NCBI RefSeq assembly: GCF_036345015.1 | Contig: NZ_CP084098.1 | Location: 1,997,326-2,061,325, forward strand | Length of the DNA: 64,000 nt | Direction of reading: 5' to 3' | Source of the DNA: Cyanobacterium sp. Dongsha4 | GTDB lineage: Bacteria > Cyanobacteriota > Cyanobacteriia > Cyanobacteriales > Cyanobacteriaceae | Made by a program: the position numbers and the translations under genes | Shown here: positions 26,701 through 61,450 of the stretch, piece by piece | Position numbering within the stretch: the first letter of the stretch is position 1 | Layout: each line of letters begins with the position of its first letter | The notes under the pieces: model-generated | Database searches by the model: none | Told to the model about the DNA's origin: nothing | What the model saw: only the letters and a program-made list of their open reading frames with translations

Positions 26701-28950
26701 TTATAAAAGCCCCTCTAATTTTTCTAGGGCAGTCCAAAAACCTTCTCCTTCATTTTCATGCCCTTGCCATATTTCAGGGATAAAGGAAGCATGGGGGGCA
26801 AATTCCTCCAAATCAGAGGCTAAAGCTGAGAAGTCTATATCTCCTTGTCCTATTTGTAAACCTTCTCCATCTTCATCTTGTGCATCAGCAATATGAATGT
26901 GAGCAGTATAAGGGGCAACTTGTTTGATAAATTCTTTAAATGACCATTTCTTGGTATTACAAGCTAATTTAGAATGAGAAATATCTAAACAAATTCTATA
27001 GTGAAACTTTTGGCAAAATTCACTGATTTGCTGAGCATCTACAAATATATTATGATGCCTTTGTCCCCCAAAGTGCCAAGGAAAAGGGGGCATTGTTTGA
27101 GGTATTATTTCTACTCCATTAGTATCAACCTTTGACAGACTATCTAATAATTTATCTTGTAGTTTATCCAACTCAAATGAGGGTAAATGGGAATCAAGAG
27201 TAAAACCACCCACATTAGTAACGATCAAAGGTTTTGATGAATGACTGAAAAATAATTTCAGTTCATTAGTGATGTCTATAACTCGTTGTAACTCAAAAAT
27301 GGATCGTTGGCGATAATTTTCATCTAAAGAACATAAATCAAGAGTATGATCTCCAAAAAACAGCTCAGGGCTGTGTACAATCAATTGTAAGTTTAGCTTT
27401 TGCTTAAAATACTTATCAATTGGTTCTTCCAAATCTTTATAACTTAAGTGAAACTCAAGAAAATCAGGGTTGGATTTATCTAATATTTTTTGATAATCAT
27501 GATAACGCACAGGTAAACCCCAAGGACGTTTGAATTTATATTGACGAGGTTTTATTGCTTGTTCTACTAAATCACTGGGATAAAAATAATCTCCTGCTTG
27601 AAAATTTCTTTTAGCAATTTGACCGATTAAATCTTGACGACGATTAGGTTGTAAACCTCTACCGGGGCTTTTAATTTCGATCATTTCTGGTTTGATTATT
27701 TCTCCTTGTTTTAAAGAACAGTTAATAACAAGACTTTTTGCAAGAGTTACTCTATTCATCATCTCCCCTTGACTAATTCTTCTTTCACTACTGTTTCCAA
27801 GAGCTTCTTCTATTTGTTGAATAGCTTCTATCATGGTCTTAAATTCGCTTGGTAATAAACTAACTTTATGGTCATTCCCTTCCATATTGCGGTCAAGAGT
27901 GATATGTTTTTCGATAACTTTTGCTCCTTTAGCTACGGCGGCAATGGGGACGAAAAACCCCCTTTCATGACCAGAATATCCCACCAAACATTGTCCAATT
28001 TGTTTGAGATGATCTAAGTAGTTAAGATTAATGTCTTTGAAAGGGGCAGGGTAGGTAGAATTACAATGTAGCAAAATATACTGAGTACCTAAATCTTGTA
28101 GTAATTTGACTGATTCTTTTATCTCTTGTTCTGTGGACATTCCTGTAGAACAAATCAACGGTTTTCCTGTTTTGGCTATTTCTGATAGAAGTTGATGGTT
28201 TGTTAAATCGGCTGAAGCTACTTTATAAGCCTTCATTCCGTATTTTTCTAGTATTTCTAAACTTTTTAGATCCCAAGGAGTACAAAGTGGCAAAATACCT
28301 TTTTCTTGACAATAATCAAAGATTTCCAACATTTGCTGATCTGTAAGTTGAAACCTAGAAAGTAGATCAAGAGTATATTGAGAACCTAGGTTTTCCTTGG
28401 CATCATTGGCGTTACCCGCATTTTGATATAAACTAGCTATATTTCGCATTTGGAACTTGGCACAGTTCGCACCAGATGCAATAGCGGAATCAACTAATTG
28501 TTTAGCTAGTCCAAAATTGCCATTGTGATTAATCCCGATCTCAGCGATAATAAAGGTAGAAGATTTTTCATGAATATGGAAATTGTCAATACGCATACCC
28601 TCTCCATCATGGCGATGACGGGCAACGGCAACTAATCTTTTATTCTTATCAATAAGAGGAATATAAAGAACTTTGTCTAATAGCAGTTTGATTTTTTCTG
28701 GTTCATCTCCTACTGTGGCATACAGAAATTTTCTATTTATTACCTGTTTTACAGGTTGTTCTAAATTAACATTCGTTTGATTCATCAACCATCTCAATAT
28801 ATCCCCGTTTGTTAGCAATCCTTGCAATCGGTGATTTTCGTCTAGCACAAATATTATTCTACCTTTATGAACTTCGATTTTTTGTAAAGCATTTAGAATA
28901 CTCTCCTCTTGGTAAATAATATATTGAGATAGTTCTTTTTCTATATACAT
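26701..28950 (-). CDS. Fused CBS - NeuB-like synthase - SAF - TIM-barrel isomerase-like protein
   Basis: The protein has 749 residues in four parts. Residues about 1-115 are a CBS-domain pair (IIFVLDENHRLQGLLTNGDILRWL). About 130-395 is a NeuB-type sugar acid synthase (FIIAEIGINHNGNFGLAKQLVDSA, KVASADLTNHQLL, ILLHCNSTYPAPF, VIEKHITLDRNMEGNDHKVSLLPSEF), which condenses PEP with a hexose-type substrate. About 400-465 is a SAF/antifreeze-like domain (LAKSLVINCSLKQGEIIKPEMIEIKSPGRGL). About 470-749 is a xylose-isomerase/AP-endonuclease-like TIM barrel (FLEFHLSYKDLEEPIDKYF, FRICLDISH-like stretch YRICLDISHSKLACN, PEIWQGHENEGEGFW). The TIM barrel could supply an isomerised substrate to the synthase. 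A stand-alone NeuB lies at 36.3 kb, so the two probably make different products. Confidence 0.85.
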   Translation of the reverse strand: MYIEKELSQYIIYQEESILNALQKIEVHKGRIIFVLDENHRLQGLLTNGDILRWLMNQTNVNLEQPVKQVINRKFLYATVGDEPEKIKLLLDKVLYIPLIDKNKRLVAVARHRHDGEGMRIDNFHIHEKSSTFIIAEIGINHNGNFGLAKQLVDSAIASGANCAKFQMRNIASLYQNAGNANDAKENLGSQYTLDLLSRFQLTDQQMLEIFDYCQEKGILPLCTPWDLKSLEILEKYGMKAYKVASADLTNHQLLSEIAKTGKPLICSTGMSTEQEIKESVKLLQDLGTQYILLHCNSTYPAPFKDINLNYLDHLKQIGQCLVGYSGHERGFFVPIAAVAKGAKVIEKHITLDRNMEGNDHKVSLLPSEFKTMIEAIQQIEEALGNSSERRISQGEMMNRVTLAKSLVINCSLKQGEIIKPEMIEIKSPGRGLQPNRRQDLIGQIAKRNFQAGDYFYPSDLVEQAIKPRQYKFKRPWGLPVRYHDYQKILDKSNPDFLEFHLSYKDLEEPIDKYFKQKLNLQLIVHSPELFFGDHTLDLCSLDENYRQRSIFELQRVIDITNELKLFFSHSSKPLIVTNVGGFTLDSHLPSFELDKLQDKLLDSLSKVDTNGVEIIPQTMPPFPWHFGGQRHHNIFVDAQQISEFCQKFHYRICLDISHSKLACNTKKWSFKEFIKQVAPYTAHIHIADAQDEDGEGLQIGQGDIDFSALASDLEEFAPHASFIPEIWQGHENEGEGFWTALEKLEGLL

Positions 28951-29213: not shown

Positions 29214-29834
29214 TCATCTTAATTGATAACCGTAGGCATGACGGAAAAAATGTCTAAATCCTAAATATTCCTTCAAGACTTGATACTGTTGGGGATTAAT
29301 TACTGCTTTTCTCACATTAGGAATGTCTGAAGACATTTGGGTTAATAAATCTAAGTGCGATCGCTCTCCTGTGGGCAAAGAATTATCAATGTTGATAGCT
29401 ATTCTGCGAAAAATCCCTTCAATGCTAGTGTAATATTGATGAAGATAAGAAGCTAAACCATTCATTTCTAACTGCGTTGGTGGTTCTTTTAAAGAAGATA
29501 AATCTTTTCGGGTTTCTTCTACAAGTCTTTGTAAAGAGAGTAATTCATCATCAATTAAGGACTTCAAAGCATCAAGAGAATTAGTATTCATAATTTTTCC
29601 CTGTAAAATTCTCGTTTTAATTTCAGGATAAGCGGTTTCTAAGGGTACTAAATCTAAATCTATTCCTTTTGGTAATAAATCACGACATAAGGAGTAAGCA
29701 CGAAAAAAACTCCCTTCGGGTAATCCTTCCACAGCTAAATCAATATCAGAAAAATCATGCCAAGGAGTTTGCCCTGCTAAAGAGCCAAATAAAATTACTT
29801 TTTTTGCACTAAATTCTGTGATTAAAACTGACAA
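29214..29834 (-). pseudogene. Nucleotidyltransferase-HEPN fusion, 5' end cut by an IS
   Basis: The apparent start TTG at 29834 lies inside the inverted repeat of the IS at 29828, so the true N-terminus is lost. The remaining part has an MNT nucleotidyltransferase core (VILFGSLAGQTPWHDFSDIDLAVEG) to about residue 80, then a HEPN-type helical domain ending with FRHFFRHAYGYQL, which contains an R-x(4)-H-like motif. In many genomes these are two separate toxin-antitoxin genes; here one reading frame contains both, with an internal ATG at KIMNTNSLDALKSL. Only the first about 20 residues of the nucleotidyltransferase seem missing, so the HEPN part may still be made. Confidence 0.65.
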
Positions 29835-31120
29835 TTCTGAAAATGGCTGAAAAGCTGAAAGTGTTAAGAATCAAACCGTATGCTTAAATGAAAATGCCCA
29901 AAATATTTTTCCTAAATCATGAAATTTCATCTATCTAGCATAATTCAGATTTTCTTTGTCAGATTTAATAGATTATTTCGCTCTCATAAAATTGAAGCAT
30001 TTGAAGCTATTATGATTTTAGCAATCAGTCATGCCTATGGCTGTTTTAATCCTAAACAATTGGCAGATTTCTTAGGAGTTAATCATCAAAAAATATATGC
30101 AGAAATTTCTTCATGGACATTATACAAGCTCCAAAAAGTTTTAAAATTATTGATGGTCAATGTGGCAGTAGAACAGTTACAAATTATTGAAAAAAAGAGT
30201 AATTCTACACAGTCAAGGGCAAAGATAACATTTGCTGTAGATGATAGTGTTATTGACAGAGTAGGAAAGAGGTTACGCTGTACATTTACTTGGTATAGTG
30301 GACGTTGGAAAAAAGTGGTAAATGGACAAAATATATTAGGAATCATATTAACAATCAATGGAAAAGCAATACCCATTGGATTAAAATATTGCTCCAAACA
30401 GGGAAGAAAAAATACGGATAAACCAAGTATTTTAATTGCGATGTTAAAGGAAATTAAAGAAGAATGTCTCAAAGAAAATATCAATATTAGTAAATATCCT
30501 ATTACTCTCGATTCTTGGTATGTATCACAACAATTAAAAGAACAATTAGATGAACTAGGATTCACCAAAATTATTATGGCTGGGAAAAGTAGTTATGTAT
30601 TTGAAGGAGAAGATTTTAAAGGAAAAGGAAGTGAATGGAAAAAAAGAGTGGATTATCAAGAAAATCAATGGGGAATAGATGTGCCTTGTGTGAGAAAAAA
30701 ATTATCAAATCCGACTTTTGGGGAGTTAAATTGGTTATTTTTTCAAAAAAGTAATAGTAGTTGTTATTTATTGATGGATTTAAGTAGTATATCGTTGAGA
30801 GGAGTAGAAATATGGCGGATATGGTCTGCACACAATATTATTGAACAGTTTTGGAAAATGTTAAAATCGGTACTAAAAATTGCGGAGATGAAATTAAGGA
30901 AACAGGGAATTTATATAGGATTATTAATTAAAGTAATAATGTATTTAATACTGTTATCAATGCAGTTTATGCCTAGTTTAGGTCGTTTATCATTGACGCA
31001 AATAATGAGAAAAATAGAATCAACAACTAAGCTACCTGATGTAATCAAAGAGCATTTTCAGCACGATTTTCTAGGGGTTTCAGCTATGGCATAGCTTTTC
31101 AGGGTTTTTGGAATTATCAG
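29828..31120 (+). mobile_element. IS4-superfamily insertion sequence, copy A (no target duplication)
   Basis: The element is 1293 bp with ends CTGACAATTCTGAAAATGGC and CTGATAATTCCAAAAACCC (inverted). It is the same length as copy B at 39919-41211, and I find only one coding difference. Unlike copy B it has no matching flanks (left ..TAAAA, right TTGAT..), and it separates the 5'-truncated nucleotidyltransferase from a 3'-truncated Rpn-like gene. This points to a deletion or recombination after insertion. Confidence 0.88.
29919..31094 (+). CDS. IS4-superfamily DDE transposase (copy A)
   Basis: The transposase has 391 residues. Probable catalytic Asp residues are in ITFAVDDSVIDRVGKR and YPITLDSWYVSQQLKEQL, and the Glu in WSAHNIIEQFWKMLKS. 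The LDSWY block and the 5-bp duplication at copy B suggest an IS701- or ISH3-like group, but I cannot assign it firmly. It is intact. Two long antisense ORFs inside it are shadows. Confidence 0.88.
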   Translation: MKFHLSSIIQIFFVRFNRLFRSHKIEAFEAIMILAISHAYGCFNPKQLADFLGVNHQKIYAEISSWTLYKLQKVLKLLMVNVAVEQLQIIEKKSNSTQSRAKITFAVDDSVIDRVGKRLRCTFTWYSGRWKKVVNGQNILGIILTINGKAIPIGLKYCSKQGRKNTDKPSILIAMLKEIKEECLKENINISKYPITLDSWYVSQQLKEQLDELGFTKIIMAGKSSYVFEGEDFKGKGSEWKKRVDYQENQWGIDVPCVRKKLSNPTFGELNWLFFQKSNSSCYLLMDLSSISLRGVEIWRIWSAHNIIEQFWKMLKSVLKIAEMKLRKQGIYIGLLIKVIMYLILLSMQFMPSLGRLSLTQIMRKIESTTKLPDVIKEHFQHDFLGVSAMA

Positions 31121-31504
31121 TTGATAATTCTGATAGCTTCTAATGCCCTTAAACTCTGATTGATAACAATTAGGGATGTTTTCATTTTGAGAATTAGGAA
31201 GAATATTGATTAATACGGGATAAACTGGCAAATTATATTTTTCCTCTGCTAAGGCAGTGTAAGCCCTCATTCTCAAAGGCATTTCTTTTTTATATTTTAA
31301 TTGCAGTTCATTCAAAATCAAAAATTCCCCATTGTCAGGATTATTAACTTTTAATAGTACATCATTATCTCTACCGATCCACTGAAATTCTGAAGAGAGA
31401 AATTCCTGTACTTCAATAGTTTGATCTTGCGTAATCCAGCGTACCCAATTATTGGGTGCTAAACTGATTAATCTTTTACTACCTAAATCTGCTTTTTTTG
31501 TCAT
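31121..31504 (-). pseudogene. Rpn-like (PD-(D/E)XK) protein gene, 3' end cut by IS copy A
   Basis: The start MTKKADLGSKRLISLAPNNWVRWITQD and the blocks FLSSEFQWIGRDNDVLLKV, GEFLILNELQLKYKKEMPLRMRAYTALAEEKYNLPVYPVLINIL are typical of the cyanobacterial Rpn/transposase-like nuclease family, with the core E-x-Q in the LNELQL strand. At about residue 128 (SYQNYQ) the frame runs into the IS and ends there as LIIPKTLKSYAIAETPRKSC. More than half of the usual protein is missing. Confidence 0.8.
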
Positions 31505-31534: not shown

Positions 31535-32506
31535 TTAGTGAATCTTAGCAGAAATCATCAATTTCACCACATCTGGAGTTGTATTTTTCGCTTCCCATCT
31601 TAACTTATCCCATGCCTTTTGAGGGTTCGATCGTCCGAATGCCAAATCAGTAGGACGAAATAAACTAGAATCCGTTTGAACGTATTTTTGCCAATCTAAA
31701 TGGAAGTATTCAAAGGCAAAACGAACAAAATCTTCTAAGGAATAACTTTCTCCCGTAGCAATGACATAATCATCAGGTTGATCTTGCTGTAACATTAAAT
31801 ACATTGCTTCCACATATTCTTCCGCCCATCCCCAATCTCGATAAATATTAATATTACCTAACCTTAAAATTTCTTGACTTCCTTGAGCAATACGACAGAC
31901 ACTGGCAATGATTTTTTGGGTGACAAATCGATTCGGTCTGAGGGGGGATTCATGGTTAAATAGAATACCAGAACAAGCAAATAAATTATAGGCTTCTCTG
32001 TAATTAGCTACTTGCCAAAAAGCTGCGGATTTGGCTACCGCATAAGGACTTCGAGGGCGAAAAGGAGTATTTTCATCGGCAGGAATATCCCCTGTATCAC
32101 CGAAACACTCACTAGAACTAGCATTATAGATTTTGATGGGTTGATTGAGAAAACGGATTACTTCTAAAAGATTTAACGTGCCAATGGTGATACTTTCGAG
32201 GGTTTCAACGGGCATTTCAAAGGATAAACCCACAGAACTTTGTCCTGCTAAATTGTAGATTTCATCGGGTTTAACTTGGGCTATCACTTGCAAGACACTA
32301 CGGAAATCCGTTAAAGTCATGGAGGTTAAATTAACTTTGTCTTTAATGCCTAAATACTCCAAGTTCCGAAAGTGGGATATTTGAGCATCTCTGGAAGTTC
32401 CCCAGACGTTGTAACCTTTTTCTAATAGTAGTTTAGCTAAATAAGCTCCGTCTTGTCCTGATATGCCACAAATTAAGGCGGTGTTCATTAGTTTCTTGAG
32501 TAACAA
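31535..32506 (-). CDS. GDP-mannose 4,6-dehydratase family sugar-nucleotide dehydratase
   Basis: The protein has 323 residues. The Rossmann motif [23 protein letters not shown], the SSSECFGDTG segment and the catalytic SPYAVAKSAAFW (YxxxK) are followed by SPLRPNRFVTQKI and RDWGWAEEYVEAMYLML, all characteristic of GMD-type extended SDRs. The second Met (MNTALICG) is the likelier start. The product would be a 4-keto-6-deoxy sugar nucleotide for the glycan. The neighbours are nonulosonic acid genes. A copy of its 5' end and leader sits at 44768-44905. Confidence 0.82.
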   Translation of the reverse strand: MLLKKLMNTALICGISGQDGAYLAKLLLEKGYNVWGTSRDAQISHFRNLEYLGIKDKVNLTSMTLTDFRSVLQVIAQVKPDEIYNLAGQSSVGLSFEMPVETLESITIGTLNLLEVIRFLNQPIKIYNASSSECFGDTGDIPADENTPFRPRSPYAVAKSAAFWQVANYREAYNLFACSGILFNHESPLRPNRFVTQKIIASVCRIAQGSQEILRLGNINIYRDWGWAEEYVEAMYLMLQQDQPDDYVIATGESYSLEDFVRFAFEYFHLDWQKYVQTDSSLFRPTDLAFGRSNPQKAWDKLRWEAKNTTPDVVKLMISAKIH

Positions 32507-32544: not shown

Positions 32545-32985
32545 CGATCGAGCTTTTGGTTAAGTTTTGTTACTGGGTTCGATCGAGTTTAGGAATGGGG
32601 AGGTGCGATCGGCTTTTGGGAATGGGGAGGTGCGATCGGCTTTTGGGAATGGGGAGGTGCGATCGTGTTTTGGAATGAGTAGGTGCGATCGGGTTTTGGA
32701 ATGGGGAGATGCGATCGCTGTTTGGGAATGGGGAGATGAGATCGCTGTTTGGGTAATGGGGAGATGCGATCGAGTTTTGGGGAATGGGGAGGTGCGATCG
32801 GGTTTGAGAATGGGGAGGTGCGATCGAGTTTTGGGGAATGGGGAGGTGCGATCGCTGTTTGGTAATGGGGAGGTGCGATCGGGTTTTGGGAATAGGAAGG
32901 TGCGATCGCTGTTTAGGAATGGGAAGGTGCAATCGATGTTTTGGGAATGGGGAGATGCGATCGATGTTTGGGTAATACTCACATC
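32545..32985. repeat. 27-bp minisatellite, each unit containing (G)CGATCG
   Basis: Units have the form GGGGAGGTGCGATCG + 2-3 bases + TTTTGGGAAT. CGATCG (or a one-base variant) starts at 32545, 32580, 32606, 32633, 32660, 32686, 32712, 32739, 32767, 32795, 32821, 32849, 32876, 32903, 32930 and 32958, so the spacing is 26-28 bp after the first. There are no unique spacers. The long ORFs on both strands here are by-products of the 27-bp period. It lies directly upstream of the GMD-type dehydratase gene. Confidence 0.92.
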
Positions 32986-33007
32986 TTGCACTAATACATA
33001 GTAACTA

Positions 33008-33180
33008 GGTAAAAGGTGACAGGTAGCAGGTAGCAGGTGTCAGGTTTGATGATTTTTGATTATATTTAATATTTAAAGCAAAAATTAAGATGGTTTTGGT
33101 GGAATAGCTTAAATTTAAGTTCTTTTTCTTAACCTAAAACCTGAAACCCGAAACCTAAAAACTGACCTATTTTTAATCAG
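33008..33180. repeat. Short 7-bp type tandem repeats
   Basis: AGGTAGCAGGTAGCAGGT (33023-33040) and an opposite-sense run of CCTAAAACCTGAAACC-type heptamers (33135-33165) are present. These are the STRR style of repeats common between cyanobacterial genes. Similar runs occur at 48101-48131, 55600-55690 and 62240-62260. No gene is seen in 33008-33225. Confidence 0.7.
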
Positions 33181-33225
33181 GTGCAAGATCTCAGTAATAG
33201 AGAGATGCGATTTATGTTTGGTAAG

Positions 33226-33498
33226 TTAACTAAATAAATCTGAATGAGTGCCTGTCCTTTCAAAAACAATTAGATCATCTTGAGGAATTAGTTTATAAAT
33301 CAATAACCAATCCGGTGAGCTATGACATTCTCTACGATCAGCATAATTTCCGATTAGTTTATGATCCTTATGTTTGGCTTCCAGAATTTCTCGATTAACT
33401 AATTTTGAGATTATTTGTTTGAGTTTATCGATATTTTTCCCTCTTTTTTTCATCGTCTTTATATCTTTTTCAAAACGCTTAGTATAAGAAGGTTTCAC
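33226..33498 (-). CDS. YafQ/RelE-family mRNA interferase toxin
   Basis: The protein has 90 residues: YTKRFEKDIKTMKKRGKNIDKLKQIISKLV followed by HKLIGNYADRRECHSSPDWLLIYKLIPQDDLIVFERTGTHSDLF. The L-x-G-x-(Y/W)-x-x-x-R-E-C-H-x-x-P-D-W-L-L-I-Y pattern and terminal GTHSDLF are diagnostic for YafQ toxins. It follows its antitoxin with a 2-base gap, a classic translationally coupled pair. It appears intact. Confidence 0.93.
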   Translation of the reverse strand: MKPSYTKRFEKDIKTMKKRGKNIDKLKQIISKLVNREILEAKHKDHKLIGNYADRRECHSSPDWLLIYKLIPQDDLIVFERTGTHSDLFS

Positions 33499-33500
33499 TA

Positions 33501-33761
33501 TTATATCCCCAGTTGCTCAAACATATTCTCTAAATTGTCACAGTGGATCAATTCCTCCCCCTGATCCGTTTTTTCTAGTGTTTTTTGAGTTATCTGATTG
33601 GGAATTTTGACTTCAAAAGGTAATCCTTGCTGTAGTTCAACTTGCTTATAAAAAAGATTGATTGCCTCTGTCGTACTCAATCCTAACTTTTGAAAAATAT
33701 GTTCTACTTTAATCTTCAATTCAGGTTCAATTCTAGCTCTTACAGTTGCAGTTTTAGTCAT
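33501..33761 (-). CDS. RelB/DinJ-family antitoxin
   Basis: The protein has 86 residues. TATVRARIEPELKIKVEHIFQKLGLSTTEAINLFYKQVELQQGLPFEVKIPN is the ribbon-helix-helix DNA-binding and dimerisation region of DinJ/RelB antitoxins, and the acidic C-terminus would wrap the toxin. It is encoded first and autoregulation is expected from the family. It pairs with the YafQ-like toxin downstream. Confidence 0.92.
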   Translation of the reverse strand: MTKTATVRARIEPELKIKVEHIFQKLGLSTTEAINLFYKQVELQQGLPFEVKIPNQITQKTLEKTDQGEELIHCDNLENMFEQLGI

Positions 33762-33948
33762 AACTTAAACATTTAATTTTCATCCATTATCATAGCCCAT
33801 TTTGGCTACACTTGGTGACTATAAAGTTTTACTCAGATGATAATAGAGCGGGTGCTTACTGCGTAGCTGATCCCTTCGGGATAAACCCGTCAAGAACTTT
33901 TTTGAGCTAAAGTACAGTTATAAGTGTTTTAGTGTAGCTGAATTTAAT

Positions 33949-34521
33949 ATGGTTATTACCGTCGAATCCATTACTTAATCGTCTTTGAGTTTAGAAGAAT
34001 TTTTACAACTCCCCGAAACCAAACCCTATAGCGAATATATTGATGGAAAAATACAACAGAAGCCCATGCCTCAAGGACACCATAGCGTTTTACAAGGTCG
34101 TTTAGTTACCGCCATAAATGAAAACGTTTTAGCAACAAAAATTGCTTGTGATTTACCTGATTTACGATGTACTTTTGGGGGGTGATCGATCGTACCAGAT
34201 ATATCGGTTTTTAGTTGGCAACGGATTCCTAAAGATGAAAGGGGAAGAATCGCTAATCGTTTTGAAACTCATCCCGACTGGGTGATTGAAATTTTATCCC
34301 CTGAACAATCTGCTAATAAAGTGATGAGAAAAATTATGTTTTGTTTGAATCAAGGAACACAATTAGGGTGGTTAATTGATCCTGAAGATGAATCAGTAAT
34401 GATATTAAAGCCTAACCAATTTCCTGAGATAAAAGTGGAAAAGGAAATCTTGCCTGTTTTGGATGAGATTAAAGATTTACAATTATCAGTAGAGGAAATG
34501 TTTAATTGGTTGGCTATTTAG
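33949..34521 (+). pseudogene. Uma2 family gene with two in-frame stop codons
   Basis: From ATG 33949 a single frame gives MVITVESIT*SSLSLEEFLQLPETKPYSEYIDGKIQQ...LRCTFGG*SIVPDISVFSWQRIPKDERGR... PDWVIEILSPEQSANKVMRKIMFCLNQGTQLGWLIDP... to the stop at 34519-34521. The stops are TAA (codon 10) and TGA (codon 79). Both fit single C-to-T changes from CAA and CGA. The rest of the Uma2 sequence is complete, so inactivation is recent. Confidence 0.85.
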
Positions 34522-36333: not shown

Positions 36334-37410
36334 TTATGGTTTTATCCTCTCATCTTGACCATAATGTTTATTTGCTATTTTACCTAGATATTCCCAATAA
36401 AATAACGGTGAAATACCATAACCAGGACGTTTAGAAGTTAAATTATCTTCTGTCAAAATTTCCCCTTGTTGAATATCTTGATTTGCTACTAAACTTTTAC
36501 GCGCTACTTTTCTATTTTTTAACTCCACAGAAGCAGGTTTTTTTAAACTATCACCTAAAGCTGATTCCACTTCCCTAATGGATTTTATCATCTCTTTTAA
36601 CTCTGATGGTTCTAAAGAGGCTTGATGATCTGGTCCGGGGAGGGTGCGATCGATGGTAAAATGTTTTTCGATTACTGTTGCACCCCTTGCCACTGCCGCA
36701 ATGGGAATACTAATTCCTAAAGTGTGATCAGAGTAACCAACAGGTAAATTAAATGCTGATTTTAAAGTATCCATTGCCTTAAGATTCACTTGGTTGAAAG
36801 GAGTTGGATATTCGGTGACACAGTGTAATAAAGTGACATTTTGTTGTAATTTTGCTTGTCCTTCTTCACTCAAATAGACAGATTGAAAGTTAGAAATACT
36901 GGGTTTTTCTTGAATATTTAGATAACCAAAAGCTAATACTCCTAAAGCAGTTTCAATTTCTCCTAGTAAACTCATTCCCGTAGATAAAATAACAGGTTTT
37001 TGGGTTTGAGCAATTTTTAGTAAAAAAGGTGCATTAGTTATTTCACCAGAAGGAATTTTTATCAGAGGTAAATCAAAGGTTTTTGTTAATAATTCTAAAC
37101 TATCAACATCGAAAGGAGTTGATAAAAACTGAATATTTTTTGACTGACAATAGTTAATTAATTCATAATGAGCATTGGTATCTAATTCTAATTTTTTTAC
37201 CATTTCTAACTGAGATTCATTATCTCCAGTATTAGTAATTTGATATTCAGCTTTAGGGGCTGTTTTACTAATAATTAGATCAGCTTTAAAGGTTTGGAAT
37301 TTAACAGCATCAGCTTGGGCTTCACTAGCAATATCAATTAACTGTTTTGCCAGTTTTAATGAGCCGTTATGATTAACTCCTGCTTCGGCAATGATATAAC
37401 ATTTAGACAT
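36334..37410 (-). CDS. neuB: NeuB/LegI-type nonulosonic acid synthase
   Basis: I place the start at ATG 37410 (MSKCYIIAEAGVNHNGSLKLAK); the longer reading to 37464 adds an unrelated leader. The protein has about 358 residues. The PEP- and metal-binding blocks are complete: IIAEAGVNHNG, ADAVKFQTFKADL, LPLIKIPSGEITNAPFLL, TLLHCVTEYPTPF, VGYSDHTLGISIPIAAVARGATVIEKHFTIDRTLPGPDHQASLEP. The C-terminal SAF domain (KSLVANQDIQQGEILTEDNLTSKRPGYGISP) is present. It condenses PEP with the ManNAc-type product of the downstream-acting NeuC/LegG. Two His of the metal site are visible in the EKHFT and PDHQAS motifs. Confidence 0.92.
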   Translation of the reverse strand: MSKCYIIAEAGVNHNGSLKLAKQLIDIASEAQADAVKFQTFKADLIISKTAPKAEYQITNTGDNESQLEMVKKLELDTNAHYELINYCQSKNIQFLSTPFDVDSLELLTKTFDLPLIKIPSGEITNAPFLLKIAQTQKPVILSTGMSLLGEIETALGVLAFGYLNIQEKPSISNFQSVYLSEEGQAKLQQNVTLLHCVTEYPTPFNQVNLKAMDTLKSAFNLPVGYSDHTLGISIPIAAVARGATVIEKHFTIDRTLPGPDHQASLEPSELKEMIKSIREVESALGDSLKKPASVELKNRKVARKSLVANQDIQQGEILTEDNLTSKRPGYGISPLFYWEYLGKIANKHYGQDERIKP

Positions 37411-37517
37411 TGGTAAAATTAAGTAATGATGAATATTTGTTATGGAGTTTTTGTCTCTTGGCAATTAGTAATAATAATTTATTTTCGGATAAGAGCAAAT
37501 TTAATATGGTAATAGTC

Positions 37518-39294: not shown

Positions 39295-39918
39295 TGATTT
39301 TTTTATTTGTTATTTAACCATGCGATCGCATCATCTAAGGAGTTAAAATCAAAAAGACTTTCTCCAAATAATTCCAGTTCCTCAATGAATAAAGTGTTAA
39401 GTTTTGATTGTAAGATTTCACTAACATTCCCAAAGCGTTTTTTAATAAGACGACTCATGAGAGAAACCTCACCTTTTTCAAAACCTTCATTCAAAATCCG
39501 TTGATAAGTAACAGATTCTTTTAAAAGATCATCTTGTAAATACATTTTGATTAATTCCTCCGAATAATTAATACCTGCTAATAGTTCGACACAAGCGGCA
39601 ATATTGCTTTTTTGTCTGGGATCAACTATGTTTTTGATACTATCTGCTACTTGAGATAATAGCATTTCTGGTTGTTCACTTTTAGCCAAAACTGCCAACG
39701 GTAACAACTCAGGTTGAGATAAAAGAGGAGCAGGATCACATTCCCAAATTCTAATTACCCGATAACGATGGCTAGTTTTCCCCACCTGAAAACGATCTTC
39801 AAACACTTTGGGAGAATTGTCTGGGCGTAAAAAGATGATTACTTGTTCAATAACCTTATCTTCTTGATAGAGTTTATGAACTCGATAAAGCCTTACCCAA
39901 TAATCTAACATTCTCAAA

Positions 39919-41211
39919 CTGATAATTCCAAAAACCCTGAAAAGCTATGCCATAGCTGAAACCCCTAGAAAATCGTGCTGAAAATGCTCTTTGATTACAT
40001 CAGGTAGCTTAGTTGTTGATTCTATTTTTCTCATTATTTGCGTCAATGATAAACGACCTAAACTAGGCATAAACTGCATTGATAACAGTATTAAATACAT
40101 TATTACTTTAATTAATAATCCTATATAAATTCCCTGTTTCCTTAATTTCATCTCCGCAATTTTTAGTACCGATTTTAACATTTTCCAAAACTGTTCAATA
40201 ATATTGTGTGCAGACCATATCCGCCATATTTCTACTCCTCTCAACGATATACTACTTAAATCCATCAATAAATAACAACTACTATTACTTTTTTGAAAAA
40301 ATAACCAATTTAACTCCCCAAAAGTCGGATTTGATAATTTTTTTCTCACACAAGGCACATCTATTCCCCATTGATTTTCTTGATAATCCACTCTTTTTTT
40401 CCATTCACTTCCTTTTCCTTTAAAATCTTCTCCTTCAAATACATAACTACTTTTCCCAGCCATAATAATTTTGGTGAATCCTAGTTCATCTAATTGTTCT
40501 TTTAATTGTTTTGATACATACCAAGAATCGAGAGTAATAGGATATTTACTAATATTGATATTTTCTTTGAGACATTCTTCTTTAATTTCCTTTAACATCG
40601 CAATTAAAATACTTGGTTTATCCGTATTTTTTCTTCCCTGTTTGGAGCAATATTTTAATCCAATGGGTATTGCTTTTCCATTGATTGTTAATATGATTCC
40701 TAATATATTTTGTCCATTTACCACTTTTTTCCAACGTCCACTATACCAAGTAAATGTACAGCGTAACCTCTTTCCTACTCTGTCAATAACACTATCATCT
40801 ACAGCAAATGTTATCTTTGCCCTTGACTGTGTAGAATTACTCTTTTTTTCAATAATTTGTAACTGTTCTACTGCCACATTGACCATCAATAATTTTAAAA
40901 CTTTTTGGAGCTTGTATAATGTCCATGAAGAAATTTCTGCATATATTTTTTGATGATTAACTCCTAAGAAATCTGCCAATTGTTTAGGATTAAAACAGCC
41001 ATAGGCATGACTGATTGCTAAAATCATAATAGCTTCAAATGCTTCAATTTTATGAGAGCGAAATAATCTATTAAATCTGACAAAGAAAATCTGAATTATG
41101 CTAGATAGATGAAATTTCATGATTTAGGAAAAATATTTTGGGCATTTTCATTTAAGCATACGGTTTGATTCTTAACACTTTCAGCTTTTCAGCCATTTTC
41201 AGAATTGTCAG
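39919..41211 (-). mobile_element. IS4-superfamily insertion sequence, copy B
   Basis: The element is 1293 bp, with the same inverted ends as copy A. A perfect 5-bp direct repeat TCAAA flanks it (39914-39918 and 41212-41216). It is inserted in the Rpn-type gene and oriented opposite to copy A, so the 8.8 kb between the copies could invert by homologous recombination. Confidence 0.93.
39945..41120 (-). CDS. IS4-superfamily DDE transposase (copy B)
   Basis: The transposase has 391 residues and is identical to copy A except WYVSKQL for WYVSQQL (one base, A for C). It is intact. The single difference indicates that the two copies separated very recently. Confidence 0.9.
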   Translation of the reverse strand: MKFHLSSIIQIFFVRFNRLFRSHKIEAFEAIMILAISHAYGCFNPKQLADFLGVNHQKIYAEISSWTLYKLQKVLKLLMVNVAVEQLQIIEKKSNSTQSRAKITFAVDDSVIDRVGKRLRCTFTWYSGRWKKVVNGQNILGIILTINGKAIPIGLKYCSKQGRKNTDKPSILIAMLKEIKEECLKENINISKYPITLDSWYVSKQLKEQLDELGFTKIIMAGKSSYVFEGEDFKGKGSEWKKRVDYQENQWGIDVPCVRKKLSNPTFGELNWLFFQKSNSSCYLLMDLSSISLRGVEIWRIWSAHNIIEQFWKMLKSVLKIAEMKLRKQGIYIGLLIKVIMYLILLSMQFMPSLGRLSLTQIMRKIESTTKLPDVIKEHFQHDFLGVSAMA

Positions 41212-41918
41212 TCAAAGGTAAAGGAGGATCAGATTTTGGGCGAGTTTGAAATTCGAGATGAATAATTTTATTTCCTACTTCTAAGAAAAAAACGCCATCA
41301 GCACGAATAGGCTCAATATTTAATTCCGTAGGTAACATTTCGATTTTATCGTTAATTTCTCGGTTGAATAACCAAGTTAAAATTGGTTTTTTGTATTCAT
41401 CGATAATGAATTTAAGAATACTATCGTAACTCATAGATTTTGTATCAATTGTAATTAATAAATTTTATAAAAACACGCTACTAGGAATATTAATTAAACA
41501 AGAAACAATCTTTTCGGCTTGAGTTAAATCCATTTTCGGAGAATTTTTAAACATCGGTAATTTATTCATTAAAGTCCATACAGGACGAGTCATAATACCA
41601 TTATCATTGAGTAATTGTAGTAAATCATTTCGCTCATGTATATAATTCGTATCTAAAAGGAGAACATTTAACCAATAGTTACTTTTTGCATATTCTCTCT
41701 CAGAAAAAAAAGAAATACCCTCAATATTTTGAAAAACTTGTCGATATTTATCAGCTAATTGCCTTTTCTTCTCTAAAAATTTGGGTAATTGTTCCAGTTG
41801 TGCAACCCCCAAAGCTGCATTAAGATTAGGCAAACGGTAATTGTAACCAATCTGATCATGATTAAATTCCCATTTATGAGGGATTTTTGCGGTATTGGTA
41901 ATATGTTTAGCTAAATTA

Positions 41919-42882
41919 ACCTGAGTTTTGGTTAAGCAGATTGAGGTAAAATCCATTCTAAGGAAAGGTGGGGCTTTTTTGGTTGATGACAATATGCGAT
42001 TAACCCACATAATATATTGACACAGAAATTTATTGGTGAACGATGACGAGAATGTTCTATTTGTGATATGTTTTTGAGCTGATCATTGATTGTTTCGACA
42101 ATCGCTCGTTTCCGAGATAAAAGTTTGTTATGAAGTCTCATTAATTTGTTCTTCATATTGCGTCTGGGTTTGGCAAAAAACTCAATACCAAAATCTTTCA
42201 GTAACTTTGTGGCTAATTTTTGTGAGACATAACCTCTATCACCAAAAACTTTTCCCCAAAGCTCTTTTAAAAGATCGACTACAGGTTTACGGTCATCGAC
42301 ATTACCTGGGGTTAAGCTCATATTCACAATTTCCCCCAGTTCATTGACTACCAGATGGAGTTTAAAACCAAAAAACCAATCCACAGAGGTTTTGCCTCTT
42401 TGAGCTAAATTTTTAAATACTTTATGTTGGCGAATACGGCGGTTATGACAAACTTGGATCTTGGTAGAATCAATAAAACTAATTCCGGTACAGTTACCAA
42501 AACAGTGCTTGAGGTAAACACACAAGGGAATAATCGTTGATGGAATCCATTGGACAAAACGTTGATAACTGGGAAGTTTGGGAAAAGCAGAAGTCCAATA
42601 TTGTTGAACGTGATTAAGATAAAAATGTTTGAAATTACGGTAATGATTTTGGTGAAAAGCAATGAGAATAGTCATAATTTCACTTAAACAGAGACTTTTA
42701 GTACGAACACGTTGGACAGCACCATGAGAGATAAGTTTTTGTTGCCATTGAGGCTCAAATTGTTGGCAGAAATCATCGACATGACAAAATAAATGATCTA
42801 AATTAAACATAGGGCAGTAGTTAGTTGATGGTTTGTTATATTCAGCTTACTATCTGCCTGTTTTCTTATCCAAAACTGAGGT
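41919..42882 (-). mobile_element. IS982-family insertion sequence, copy 2
   Basis: The element is 964 bp, inverted relative to copy 1. The flanking direct repeat on the + strand is TAAATTA (41912-41918 and 42883-42889), 7 bp. The ends are as in copy 1. Confidence 0.92.
41932..42810 (-). CDS. IS982-family transposase (copy 2)
   Basis: The transposase has 292 residues and is intact. It matches copy 1 with only isolated differences, and it lies inside legC. The downstream ORF reading into legC across the IS end (starting at 42010) is a fusion artefact. Confidence 0.94.
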   Translation of the reverse strand: MFNLDHLFCHVDDFCQQFEPQWQQKLISHGAVQRVRTKSLCLSEIMTILIAFHQNHYRNFKHFYLNHVQQYWTSAFPKLPSYQRFVQWIPSTIIPLCVYLKHCFGNCTGISFIDSTKIQVCHNRRIRQHKVFKNLAQRGKTSVDWFFGFKLHLVVNELGEIVNMSLTPGNVDDRKPVVDLLKELWGKVFGDRGYVSQKLATKLLKDFGIEFFAKPRRNMKNKLMRLHNKLLSRKRAIVETINDQLKNISQIEHSRHRSPINFCVNILCGLIAYCHQPKKPHLSLEWILPQSA

Positions 42883-43600
42883 TAAATTACCTAGAGATTC
42901 ATAATTGGTTAAAATTGCACCTCCTCCCCCTGTAGTAATAATTTTATTGCCATTAAAACTTAAAGCGGAAACTTTGCCCCAATTTCCCGTATGAATATCG
43001 TTATAAAAACTACCTAAAGATTCGGCGGCATCTTCGATTAGTTCTAATTTAAAGTGTTCACACAAAGCGACTAATGGCTCTATATCAACGGGATGTCCAA
43101 AAGTATGTACACAGGTATAACAGCCTTAATTTTCCTGCCTGTATGACGATTAAAACAACCTTCAGAAGTGATCTTAGCAATAGTATCAAGATAATCTGCT
43201 AATTTAGTTACATCTAAGCCTAAACTAGAAAAATTACTATCGACAAAATGAGGAATTGCCCCACAATAAGCAACAGCGTTAGCAGTAGCCACAAAAGTTA
43301 AAGCAGGAATTAGCACCTCATCATCTCTTTTTACGCCTAATAATTTCAGACAGATATGTAAAGCAGATGTACCATTGACAACGGCGATCGCTCTTTTTAC
43401 GCCAGTATAATTGGCTAAATCATCCTCGAAGCGATCGACAAATTTACCCACAGAAGAAACCCAACCAGTATCAAGACATTCTTTCACACATTCCCATTCA
43501 TTGCCTTGAAAATAAGGCTCATGTAAAGCAATAAAATCTTTATTTTTGGGTAATACTTCCTTGATAGCGTCTAAAATTAAGTTTAAATCGAGCTTTTTCA

Positions 43601-44766: not shown

Positions 44767-44905
<139 letters not shown>

Positions 44906-44935
44906 TGATGTTTGGGGATAAAGGGGGTGCGATCA

Positions 44936-45359
44936 CACCCGTTTGAGATTTTTGGAGCGATCGCCCTCAGAAGCAATTCATCGAGCAAATTTACAAATAG
45001 CAGATGTAGTATTAGACACTTATCCCTATAATGGGGCAACAACAACCCTTGAAACCTTATGGATGGAAATTCCCTTAGTAACAAGAGTTGGGGAACAATT
45101 CGCCGCCCGTAATAGTTATACTTTTATGATGAATGCAGGTATCACTGAAGGCATTGCATGGAGTGATGAGGAATATATTGAATGGGGAGTAAGGTTAGGT
45201 ACAGATGAAAATTTACGCAAGGAAGTCAGTTGGAAGTTAAAACAATCTAAAAAAACTTCTCCTCTGTGGAATGGGAAGCAGTTTGCGAGGGAAATGGAGA
45301 AGGCTTATCAACAAATGTGGGAAATTTATGTTGGGGAGAAACAGAAAATATTGTCATAA
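44936..45359 (+). pseudogene. 3' fragment of a GT41 glycosyltransferase gene (copy 1)
   Basis: It corresponds to about the last 140 residues of the 730-residue protein at 10664, nearly identical: RFLERSPSEAIHRANLQIADVVLDTYPYNGATTTLETLWMEIPLVTRVGEQFAARNSYTFMMNAGITEGIAWSDEEYIEW... to IYVGEKQKILS. The catalytic N-terminal lobe and all TPRs are absent. The homology begins at a GATCACACCC that corresponds to GATCGCACCC in the full gene, next to minisatellite-like sequence. It is not expected to be active alone. Confidence 0.85.
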
Positions 45360-48354: not shown

Positions 48355-49454
48355 GGGCGTGTCTGCAAAATGGTAAAATGAGTAAAACTACTTAAAATAA
48401 TTAATGTTATGGAAGCGCGCCGCGAAGCGGATCCCGTCGGGATCGCTCTTAATCCTAACCAAGCAATTAATAGAAAAGATATAACGGATATACAATGGGA
48501 AAAGTTACAACCATTATTACCACCACAGAAACCATCAAAAGGAAGACCTAATCTAGATCACAGGCAAATAATCAATGGAATTCTCTGGATTTTGAGAACT
48601 GGTGCACCTTGGAGGGATTTACCACCTTGTTATGGGATTCATAGCACAGTTTCTAGCCGATTCTATCGATGGCGAAAAGCAGAAGTTTGGGAGCAAATTC
48701 TCGCAAAACTTCAAACGATCGCAGACTATGAGGAACGGATTGATTGGGAAGTCCATTCTGGAGATAGTACAGTTATCAGGGCCCATCAACAGGCAGGGGG
48801 TGCAAAAGGGGGCAACAAAACCAAGATTTAGGGCGTAGTAAAGGGGGATTTACCACCAAAGTTCATGTTAGAGTGGAGGGATTCGGAAAACCAATAACTT
48901 TGAGTCTAACTTCAGGGGAACGTCATGACACCGTAGCTTTTGACGATTTACTGACTGGAGGAAAAGTAAAACGTAGGGGCAGAGGAAGACCAAAGAGTAG
49001 GTTTCGCTATTTTTTAGGTGATAAAGCGTACAGTAGTCAAGAAATTCGGGAAAAACTCCGAAAAAAAGGTGTAACTCCCATAATTCCTCGCAAAAGTAAT
49101 GAAAAAAAACGAGAACGCTTTAATAAAGGTCTTTATCGAGAGAGAAACCAAGTAGAAAGATTAATCAACCGTCTCAAACAAAATAGAAGAATAGCAACTC
49201 GTTACGAGAAGTATGCAGTAAATTACTTAGCTATGCTTACAATTGCTTCAATTTTTATCTGGTTATAACTAAACTTTATCAAAAAAAACTGGTTAGCGTA
49301 ACTTCTACAGTAATGAAGGGCCTAAAAGCATGGGCAATTTTAATTAGCGTAGATATTACACTAATTATCAGAGACTTTTTCATATTTCAAAATCTAAGTA
49401 ATTGTATAGCACCAAACATACAACAGCTTAATTTGATAATTTGCAGACACGCCC
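48355..49454 (+). mobile_element. IS5-family (IS427-like) insertion sequence
   Basis: The inverted ends are GGGCGTGTCTGCAAA at 48355 and its complement ending at 49454. It is flanked by TA on both sides. The two flanks belong to different genes (HigA remnant left, glycosyltransferase module right), so sequence was lost beside it. It is about 1100 bp, with about 185 bp of non-coding sequence between the transposase stop and the right end, which is long for the group. Confidence 0.85.
48409..49268 (+). CDS. IS5-family transposase in two overlapping frames
   Basis: Frame 1 (48409-48831) has NRKDITDIQWEKLQPLLPPQKPSKGRPNLDHRQIINGILWILRTGAPWRDLPPCYGIHSTVSSRFYRWRKAEVWEQIL and the first catalytic Asp in VHSGDSTVIRAHQQAGGAKGG. 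Frame 2 (about 48805-49268) carries SKGGFTTKVHVRVEGFGKPITLSLTSGERHD, then FLGDKAYSSQEIREKL and RERNQVERLINRLKQNRRIATRYEK. Joining by frameshift near 48800 is usual for this group. The first codons (MEARREADPVGIAL) come from a palindromic cyanobacterial repeat, so the native start is probably further in. Confidence 0.85.
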
Positions 49455-50426
49455 TAATAACTTGGGTGGTTTAGCTTCACGAATAGCGTTAAATACTTTT
49501 TGGGTGGTATCAGGGCGATTGAAAATGAGAAAAGCAACAGGAGTGGTTAATTGCCAGTTATCATCATACTCATAATTATTCATGTTTGTTGGTTTGGGAC
49601 TTGTAATTTGCATACAGGATTTACCTAAACAAGATTCTTTATCACTGGGCAAAGTTTTAGTTTCTAAAATTTCTGTAGATTTGAAGAATAAAGAAGTACA
49701 GTTTTTGTAAGTATAACTAGGAATTAAACCATAAAAATCAATTCTTTTATAACCTTGAGATGATAATAATTTTAATGATGAATCGTAACGGTGATCATCG
49801 GTATTATCAAAAATTAATAAACCATCATTTTTAAGTTTATTTAAGCTATTTTCTAAACAACTATTTCTATTGATTCCATCAACAATAATTACATCAAAAT
49901 ATTGATCAGGATATTGGTTAATAAAATCTGCGTATTTTGTCTCATCAACTTCTAAATTTAATTGCACATTATCGGGCATTTGTTGTTTAATTTGATCATA
50001 CCAACCTCGATCGCTTTCGATGGAAATAACTTGTTTTGCCTTACTTGCCCACCATAAAGTAGAATTTCCTCCACCAAATTCAAATACTATAGAATCGGGC
50101 TTTATTTTATCTTCTAAAAATTCAATGGCGGGATAAGTGTACCAAGGAATGGGGTTACTTTCAGCATTAACGGGTTTCCCTTGAAATAGAGAATTAAGCC
50201 ATCCTGAAGTGGATAAATAATTAATTCCTTGAATTAAGTTACCTGAAATTTGTTGCCAGTTTGCTTCTAAGATTAAACAATGGGCTAAACGAATGGATAG
50301 AGTGGGTTTAAGTTGAGGATTTTCGTTGATTAATTGTAAATATAGTTGCGATGCTTTGCTAAATTCTTTTTGATCAAAATATTGATTAGCTTGATTGAGT
50401 TTAAGTTGTAAATCTGATTGATTCAT
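49455..50426 (-). pseudogene. TPR-methyltransferase-glycosyltransferase gene, 3' end cut by IS5
   Basis: From ATG 50426 the gene encodes a short TPR-like start (NQANQYFDQKEFSKASQLYLQLINENPQ), then a class I methyltransferase-like domain (SIVFEFGGGNSTLWWASKAKQVISIESDRGWYDQI, FDVIIVDGINRNSCLENSL). It then begins a GT-A domain, WQLTTPVAFLIFNRPDTTQKVFNAIREAKPPKLL, that matches module 2 of the giant protein (residues about 530-560). The IS5 end cuts it there. The original protein was probably another multi-module glycosyltransferase. The methyltransferase part may still be made. Confidence 0.8.
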
Positions 50427-50499: not shown

Positions 50500-50575
50500 T
50501 TTTATGACAGCGATGCGATCGGGTTTGAGAATAGGAGGTGCGATCGAGGTTTGGGAATGAGGAGGTGCGATCGTG
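50500..50575. repeat. Short stretch of GCGATCG minisatellite units
   Basis: There are three units of the 32.5-kb type (GATGCGATCGGGTTTGAGAATAGG, GTGCGATCGAGGTTTGGGAATG, GTGCGATCG) with 26-27 bp spacing. They are joined directly to the GT41 3' fragment that follows. The leader before it (TTAACTATCTTTCAAGTTACCC) resembles the leader of the dehydratase gene at 32.5 kb. Confidence 0.75.
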
Positions 50576-50955
50576 TACAGAAGCAATTCATCGGGCAAAT
50601 TTACAAATAGCGGATGTGGTATTAGACACTTATCCCTATAATGGTGCAACTACAACCCTTAAAACCTTTATGGATGGAAATTCTTTTAGTCACCAGAGTT
50701 GGGGAACAATTCGCTGCTAGGAACAGTTATACTTTTATGATGAATGCAGGTATCACCGAAGGCATTGCATGGAGTGATGAGGAATATATCGAATGGGGTA
50801 TTAAGTTAGGTACAGACGAGGATTTAAGAAAGGAAATTAGTTGGAAGTTAAGGCAGTCTAAAAAAACATCTCCTATGTGGAATGGGAAGCAGTTTGCGAG
50901 GGAAATGGAGAAGGCTTATCAACAAATGTGGGACATTTATGAGAGTGACAAATAA
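50576..50955 (+). pseudogene. 3' fragment of a GT41 glycosyltransferase gene (copy 2)
   Basis: It reads EAIHRANLQIADVVLDTYPYNGATTTLKT, then a one-base frameshift at CCTTTATGG, then MEILLVTRVGEQFAARNSYTFMMNAGITEGIAWSDEEYIEWGIKLG... IYESDK. It matches residues about 600-725 of the protein at 10664. No start or catalytic N-lobe is present. It begins right after GCGATCGTG. The stop faces the Uma2 gene at 50977. Confidence 0.83.
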
Positions 50956-60676: not shown

Positions 60677-61450
60677 ATGAAAAAATCTAAGTCTCTCGAA
60701 CTATTAATGGCAATAGGGCTAACTGCAACTTTAAGCTCTACTTCATCATTTGTTAATGCCCAAGAAAACGCTAATAATAATACAAACATCGCACCATTTT
60801 TACTGGCGCAGGGGGGCGAAGGGGTTGAAGGTGGTGAAGGTGGCGAAGGGGGTGAAGGGAGTGAAGAATATAGCGAGGGAGAACAAGCCAATGCTGATTT
60901 TACAGATAAAATAGATGGAAAACAATTACTTGACTCATTAAAACAAGGTGGTTACGTTATTTACTTCCGTCATGCAGAAACAGAAAAAGATTATGCTGAT
61001 CAGGTAACTGCCGTTATGGGTAATTGTTCAACTCAAAGAACTCTAAGTGAATACGGTTGGAATCAGGCTAAAATGATTGGAGAAGCCTTTAGAAAATACT
61101 CAATTCCCGTGGCCGATGTTATTGCAAGTCAATATTGTCGTGCTTGGCAAACCGCAGATTTAGCTTTTGGGAGATACGTGAAAAATGGTGATCTAAATTT
61201 TCCTAAAGCGGAAGATTATACAGATGAACAAGTAGCAGAAATGAAAGCTAGATTGATTCCTATGCTGACAAAATTACCCCCTCAAGGAGAAAATACAGTC
61301 ATTGTTGGCCACGATGATTTATTTGAAGCGGCTACAGGTATTTATCCCGCTCCTCAAGGTTTAGCTTATGTAGTAAAACCAGACGGCAACGGTGGATTTG
61401 AATTAATTGCAAATCTGCTACCAGAAGAATGGATGAAATTAGGACAATAA
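60677..61450 (+). CDS. Secreted histidine phosphatase family protein with Gly/Glu-rich spacer
   Basis: The protein has 257 residues. An N-terminal signal peptide (MKKSKSLELLMAIGLTATLSSTSSFVNAQE) is followed by a low-complexity stretch (residues about 47-66, repeats of GEGG and related units). The phosphoglycerate-mutase-like domain follows, with the RHG-type motif YVIYFRHAETEKDYAD, the second basic segment SQYCRAWQTADLAFG and the late His in TVIVGHDDLFEA. It probably removes phosphate from an extracytoplasmic substrate. A hairpin terminator follows. The antisense ORF over the Gly/Glu stretch is a shadow. Confidence 0.88.
   Translation: MKKSKSLELLMAIGLTATLSSTSSFVNAQENANNNTNIAPFLLAQGGEGVEGGEGGEGGEGSEEYSEGEQANADFTDKIDGKQLLDSLKQGGYVIYFRHAETEKDYADQVTAVMGNCSTQRTLSEYGWNQAKMIGEAFRKYSIPVADVIASQYCRAWQTADLAFGRYVKNGDLNFPKAEDYTDEQVAEMKARLIPMLTKLPPQGENTVIVGHDDLFEAATGIYPAPQGLAYVVKPDGNGGFELIANLLPEEWMKLGQ

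Follow-up and report, generated by a model that had tools for sequence, protein, structure and literature searches.

Integron arrays carry small genes or gene pairs, rich in toxin–antitoxin (TA) systems, that are separated by repeats in the same orientation and are reordered between relatives; each attC site is a single imperfect palindrome with long arms. Bacterial minisatellites (VNTRs) consist of head-to-tail tandem units of 10–100 bp and show higher-order duplication. HIP1 sites occur as dispersed singles. PMC4390886 associates them with two methyltransferases and mentions hints of site-specific and illegitimate recombination at HIP1, citing Akiyama 1998 and Robinson 1997, and notes no evidence for homologous recombination there. 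PMC6604393 reports HIP1 as having no direct role in the regulation of expression, and describes more than 50 double-methylated CGATCG elements, which occur in every repeat, in the CRISPR1 array of Synechocystis 6803, whose CGATCG methyltransferase it names as slr0214.

Here we analysed a stretch of 64,000 nucleotides from Cyanobacterium sp. Dongsha4 (the window), which contains a tandem array that resembles each of these systems in part. As with HIP1, CGATCG anchors every unit and the genome is rich in HIP1, but the sites form a tandem array with a polar spacer, and the full octamer GCGATCGC is present in only 3 of the 16 cores. Like the Synechocystis CRISPR1 array (PMC6604393), it packs CGATCG tightly, but it has no unique spacers, and the sequence between the cores is the conserved part. 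Its likeness to integron arrays lies in small, TA-rich cassettes, same-orientation repeats (78 to 4) and an order that differs between relatives, whereas no integrase was seen, the cassette genes face both directions, and tandem multi-copy units of about 27 bp take the place of the attC palindrome. The predicted stems, which mainly pair neighbouring HIP1 cores, are also unlike attC. Head-to-tail units (period 27, 13.9 copies) and higher-order duplication are shared with VNTRs, but the build and polarity seen here are common to many loci and genomes and are tied to cassette boundaries. We found no description of HIP1-anchored cassette arrays in article titles and abstract openings, in which subscription journals are thinly covered. 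The repeats apparently represent a widespread and so far undescribed HIP1-anchored class that separates small movable gene cassettes, often TA pairs.

The array and its surroundings in the window

The initial annotation had described a 27-bp minisatellite of sixteen (G)CGATCG cores at 32545–32985. The minisatellite itself was confirmed: TRF reported a period of 27 (83% match, score 449), and after an irregular first step of 35 bp the cores follow one another at 26–28 bp. They start at 32545, 32580, 32606, 32633, 32660, 32686, 32712, 32738, 32767, 32795, 32821, 32849, 32876, 32903, 32929 and 32958. Of these 16 cores, 14 are perfect and two have one mismatch each (GAGATCG at 32738 and GCAATCG at 32929); the hexamer CGATCG is the part of the octamer that is kept. 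The right end required correction, because a MITE-like element splits a unit that resumes at 33196–33224 (Table 1). The unit consensus is GCGATCG-NN-TTTTGGGAATGGGGAGGT, with the polar order CGATCG, two variable bases, TTTTGGG, AATGGGGAGGT and the next core. Inter-core sequence is near-identical between units, some of which are identical throughout, and TRF also detected a higher-order period of 109 bp (four units).

CGATCG occurs 70 times in the window, where a first-order Markov model predicts about 3.7 (mean of 30 runs). The longest run of perfect cores at 25–29 bp is six, and 2,000 random placements of the 70 sites never gave more than three; the HIP1 array at 32545 is far beyond chance. 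Array units folded better than shuffled sequences on both strands (z −4.6 and −3.4), with predicted stems that chiefly pair neighbouring HIP1 cores (5–7 bp) across a unit, and no inverted repeat of at least 12 was found within the array. Searches for an Rfam match to the array and for a terminator in its region found none. Both strands are open for about 120–144 aa, but the array is not a protein repeat, since unit lengths of 26, 27 and 28 bp break the reading frame. A CRISPR array was ruled out by the absence of unique spacers and the conserved inter-core sequence. A scan of genome contigs for the exact unit, which may omit the window's own records, gave seven stretches (three cyanobacterial, the rest unrelated) with one match each, and the exact unit is therefore lineage-specific. 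Elsewhere in the window, 9-bp GGGGGTGAA units in tandem, with a higher period of 27 bp, lie inside a possible ORF (60812–60866).

The array had been placed upstream of a sugar dehydratase gene, which agrees with the strong Pfam match of the adjoining GDP-mannose 4,6-dehydratase-like (GMD) gene and with the position of the first core, 57 bp upstream of the likely ATG. The match of this gene to the NCBIfam gmd model (E 4e-105) is under the model's cut-off. Copy number differs between relatives, seen as presence or absence between species with one genome for each. We compared 20 GMD-homologue loci together with flanks of 1.5 kb, or less where the contig ended. A run of at least three cores was found only at the window's own locus and at 0 of the 19 others, where relatives other than genome G012 were judged by the core-run scan alone. 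In G012, a GMD gene 89% identical to that of the window is present without the array, and homology to the window ends at 32573; the second core begins seven bases further on. Promoter-like matches in the array region showed no excess (2 versus 1.6 in shuffles). The array is not merely a promoter minisatellite, and the comparative sequence evidence points away from the roles proposed earlier (protein binding, methylation of the whole block or tuning of the dehydratase gene).

To the right of the array, the 219-bp insert fits a MITE: it has inverted repeats (19 nt, 84%), a short target duplication, a further copy elsewhere in the same genome (96%, with matching ends) and no transposase gene, no ORF of at least 80 aa being listed inside it. 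The split-unit continuation is common to the window and to G003, a genome of the window's own family, and lies beside the same toxin gene in both. The array joins the GMD gene to a YafQ/RelB cassette (PF15738, E 5.5e-32; PF04221, E 3.2e-13). This cassette forms a block 87% identical in G003 that starts at a HIP1 unit in both genomes; no repeat was found at its right edge (33830).

The window has further features. A short dispersed repeat (33850–33882) has a copy that directly adjoins the array at G000:C1:2826133. The segment at 33988–34511 has many matches in related genomes and no long ORF; it is probably the remnant of a decayed gene, which by eye may be a Uma2-type one. One ORF at 29214–29834 combines HepT-like and nucleotidyltransferase domains, a second TA type near the array. 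An unusual 749-aa fusion of CBS, NeuB, SAF and xylose-isomerase-like domains is encoded at 26701–28950, and a second NeuB gene at 36334–37464. One element of 1296 bp is present as an inverted pair with 99.9% identity (29827–31122 and 39917–41212), each copy with a 391-aa ORF that looks transposase-like by eye; the two, which lie about 9 kb apart, form a recent insertion-sequence pair. A second inverted pair (1297–2270 and 41914–42887) spans 974 bp at 99% identity.

Two sister junctions, at 44.9 and 50.5 kb, involve an intact family-41 glycosyltransferase gene (10664–12856; PF13844, E 6.2e-50) that contains two HIP1 cores. Two 3′ fragments of this gene start at one of these cores each. The first is separated by degenerate HIP1 units from a copy of the GMD 5′ segment, and the second is separated by a short array from the 5′ end of a methyltransferase-like gene (49428–50426). 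The fragments start at HIP1 cores, so unrelated genes were joined there, with the repeat unit on one side.

Table 1 Coordinates of the array, its neighbours and the sister junctions in the window
Feature	Position	Strand	Details
Two HIP1 cores 28 bp apart	12424–12457		Within intact family-41 glycosyltransferase gene; donor side of both sister junctions
GDP-mannose 4,6-dehydratase-like gene	31535–32506	−	Pfam PF16363, E 1.3e-108; 5′ end abuts array
HIP1-anchored minisatellite	32545–32976	+	16 cores (14 perfect CGATCG); 26–28 bp units; G-rich on + strand
MITE-like insertion, 219 bp	32977–33195		Terminal inverted repeats; AAT target duplication; splits last unit of array
Continuation of split array unit	33196–33224	+	Degenerate core GCGATT; 79% to reference unit
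Toxin–antitoxin cassette	33197–33830	−	YafQ/RelE-type toxin 33226–33498; RelB antitoxin 33501–33761
Duplicate of GMD 5′ segment	44768–44902	−	97%; homology ends inside first HIP1 core (32545)
Degenerate HIP1 units and 3′ glycosyltransferase fragment	44903–45332	+	93% from 44924; junction is the gene's first HIP1 core
Second array, three cores	50516–50573	+	Cores 25 and 27 bp apart; between methyltransferase-like gene 5′ end and glycosyltransferase fragment
3′ glycosyltransferase fragment	50564–50941	+	90% to 12448–12824; joined at the gene's second HIP1 core

Repeat clusters and cassettes in related genomes

Of 243 genomes of the order, 149 contain three cores spaced at 24–29 bp, although many of these hits are chance sites in coding sequence. 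Repeats of the window's build (CGATCG-N-TTTGGG-purines-GCGATCG) were sought with the directional pattern CGATCG-N1-5-TTTGGG-N8-16-GCGATCG, which matched in 108 of the 195 genomes sampled from the order, versus a single match in all for the same pattern written backwards. Across the phylum it is present in 33 of 146 genomes; the matches listed outside the order look by eye mostly like single coding sites, and none was found in the many small genomes of family f43. A relaxed detector reported 254 units in 515 kb of array regions, which had been selected because repeats were present or as relatives (5 of the 38 have no unit by this detector), versus 2 in 291 kb of 20 control regions, which were hand-chosen, fixed-offset neighbours from some of the same genomes rather than random draws. 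A letter-order control (TTTGGG 163 versus 0–44 for other orders) was biased, many regions having been chosen with TTTGGG, and was not used. Units from different loci are more alike within a genome than between genomes in 17 of 18 genomes (0.74 versus 0.60), which is what exchange of sequence between arrays should produce; common descent of the loci could add to this likeness. In two genera, arrays of differing unit (22/45 bp at L126 8140–8279 of the window's own genome, 21–22 bp at L130 8559–8736 of G008) lie about 1 kb from the point where homology to the same gene starts, so the position is kept and the unit replaced; the gene has an FtsK/SpoIIIE domain in G008.

The repeats are strongly polar over kilobases. 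In 58 fetched regions and the window, neighbouring clusters no more than 3 kb apart have the same orientation in 78 cases and opposite orientations in 4; this count combines a first set (53 to 2, median gap 835 bp) with 20 more regions. Orientation is uniform in 30 of 33 regions, and the genes between clusters face both directions. Repeats are somewhat commoner downstream of genes (98) than upstream (65).

What the clusters bracket are gene pairs of about 0.8 kb that are rich in TA families, with examples in G045, G109, G117 and G026 (the last read by eye). Genes adjoining repeats are short, with a median of 106 aa versus 223 in controls. We ran Pfam on 148 of 203 array-flanking genes and 147 of 239 control genes (one 2506-aa ORF of the 148 control genes sampled was left out) and compared the 25 commonest of 135 and of 242 families, respectively. 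The flanking genes included PIN (9 of 148), HicA (6), ParE (6), PemK (4) and HicB (4), and further families were DUF433, DUF5615, PhdYefM, cytosine methylases and XisI. These families are absent from the 25 commonest control families, the 25th of which has a single member, which leaves at most 1 of 147 control genes for each of the five TA families and up to 5 for them together; a Fisher figure that assumed 4 was not used. Control genes included phycobilisome and photosynthetic reaction-centre genes, which together with the abundance of HIP1 mark the genomes as cyanobacterial. A PADLOC scan returned mainly DNA methyltransferase models. No integrase was found in the window scan, the cassette scans or the 25 commonest of 135 flanking families, which cover part of the ORFs, and a non-exhaustive search identified no recombinase. 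When the search was reversed to start from HicA, 2 of the 30 best loci had a unit within 1.5 kb versus 2 of 89 control windows; most of the HicA modules tested are not bracketed by repeats. At L124 7103–11787 in G008, tandem paralogues of about 600 bp are related to the DUF29 gene of L121 and L123, and several have a HIP1-type unit in front.

Comparison of related genomes revealed cassettes in differing order. G045 and G117 have five blocks in common (HicAB, ParDE, PIN, an MNT/HEPN-side block and a second PIN pair) that are 92–95% identical, with the same orientation but arranged A-B-C-D-F in one genome and B-A-...-C-F-D in the other. Leaving aside block ends that coincide with a contig end, seven of the remaining nine are no more than 75 bp from a HIP1 tandem in one or both genomes, where about 42% of positions qualify by chance. 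In the window's own family, a DUF29 gene of G003 is followed by tandem HIP1 cores and then HicB/HicA. Both ends are present in G011 as well, where they are 1.4 kb apart; the intervening DNA contains an addiction-antidote/Gp49 pair and a HicA pair, and HIP1-type units precede, separate and follow these two extra TA cassettes. By sequence comparison, one site is filled in G011 and nearly empty in G003, with repeats at the boundaries. Cassettes that are 91% identical are adjacent in one of G109 and G026 and 12 kb apart in the other, and families f32 and f2 share a HicAB cassette at 90% identity. In family f33, six genomes have a long flank (a CobN/Mg-chelatase gene in G136) and one TA cassette in common, separated by 1.4–5.1 kb whose content differs. 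Of 249 cassette homology ends in all, 67 fall within 60 bp of HIP1 tandems versus 29.1 expected (2.3-fold) and 182 lie away from them, these ends not being independent events. The count excludes HSPs more than 35% inside arrays; the unfiltered 436 of 620 is inflated by array-to-array matches.

Proposed cassette exchange and alternative explanations

These results suggest, with fair likelihood, that HIP1-anchored, polar, G-rich tandem repeats are recombination junctions between cassettes that serve cassette exchange; the repeats are probably the point where cassettes get swapped in, out and around. Our reading draws on what the genomes display: polar repeats in a cassette context, HIP1 cores at the junctions, cassettes in shuffled order, and a site that is filled in one relative and nearly empty in another. 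We infer that recombination between repeats, either homologous or through cutting at HIP1, brings this about and that natural transformation moves the cassettes. Recombination between two repeats, or between a repeat and a HIP1 site in a gene, would insert, remove, duplicate and reorder cassettes carrying TA, restriction–modification and surface-glycan genes. Such exchange would leave all repeats in one orientation, and the same exchanges would lengthen, shorten and homogenize the arrays.

An unlikely alternative is that the arrays are neutral minisatellites, in which a chance intergenic HIP1 pair was expanded by slippage or unequal crossing-over. Arrays would then pile up without counter-selection in gene-poor, TA-rich islands where rearrangements occur anyway. 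The 109-bp higher-order period, the identical units, the location of arrays in accessory regions and the negative reverse test from HicA are all as this explanation would have it. However, it does not account well for an orientation that stays uniform over kilobases regardless of gene direction, for junctions located exactly at HIP1 cores inside a coding gene, for a build common across families or for the enrichment of homology ends at repeats.

Considering that the array begins so close to the likely GMD start, the CGATCG block might instead bind protein or be methylated as a block, with unit number tuning the dehydratase gene; dense methylation is plausible in view of the double-methylated Synechocystis CRISPR1 array (PMC6604393). 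We regard this as improbable, because G012 has a closely similar GMD gene without the array, promoter-like matches are at the level of shuffles, and repeats elsewhere flank genes in both directions and lean downstream. Less probable still is that the repeats are small mobile elements spread by a putative transposase that land between cassettes by chance. Dispersed copies and fixed polarity would fit such elements, and PMC4390886 mentions SDR5 elements inserted into HIP1, but we saw neither a target duplication nor element ends beyond the unit, units are homogenized within genomes, and copies are nearly confined to cassette clusters.

We put forward a broader proposal only tentatively: many cyanobacteria of the order may run a cassette system that lacks an integron integrase, in which HIP1 polar repeats would be the attachment or exchange sites and addiction modules the main cargo, with exchange driven by HIP1 methylation, by HIP1-directed cutting or by homologous recombination after transformation. 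The purpose of HIP1 is an old question, and repeats at the boundaries of shuffled TA cassettes make its link to recombination directly testable. If true, HIP1 would gain a concrete function as a recombination site. The repeats could explain how cyanobacteria assemble and trade TA genes, and integrons would no longer be the only design of cassette array to consider.
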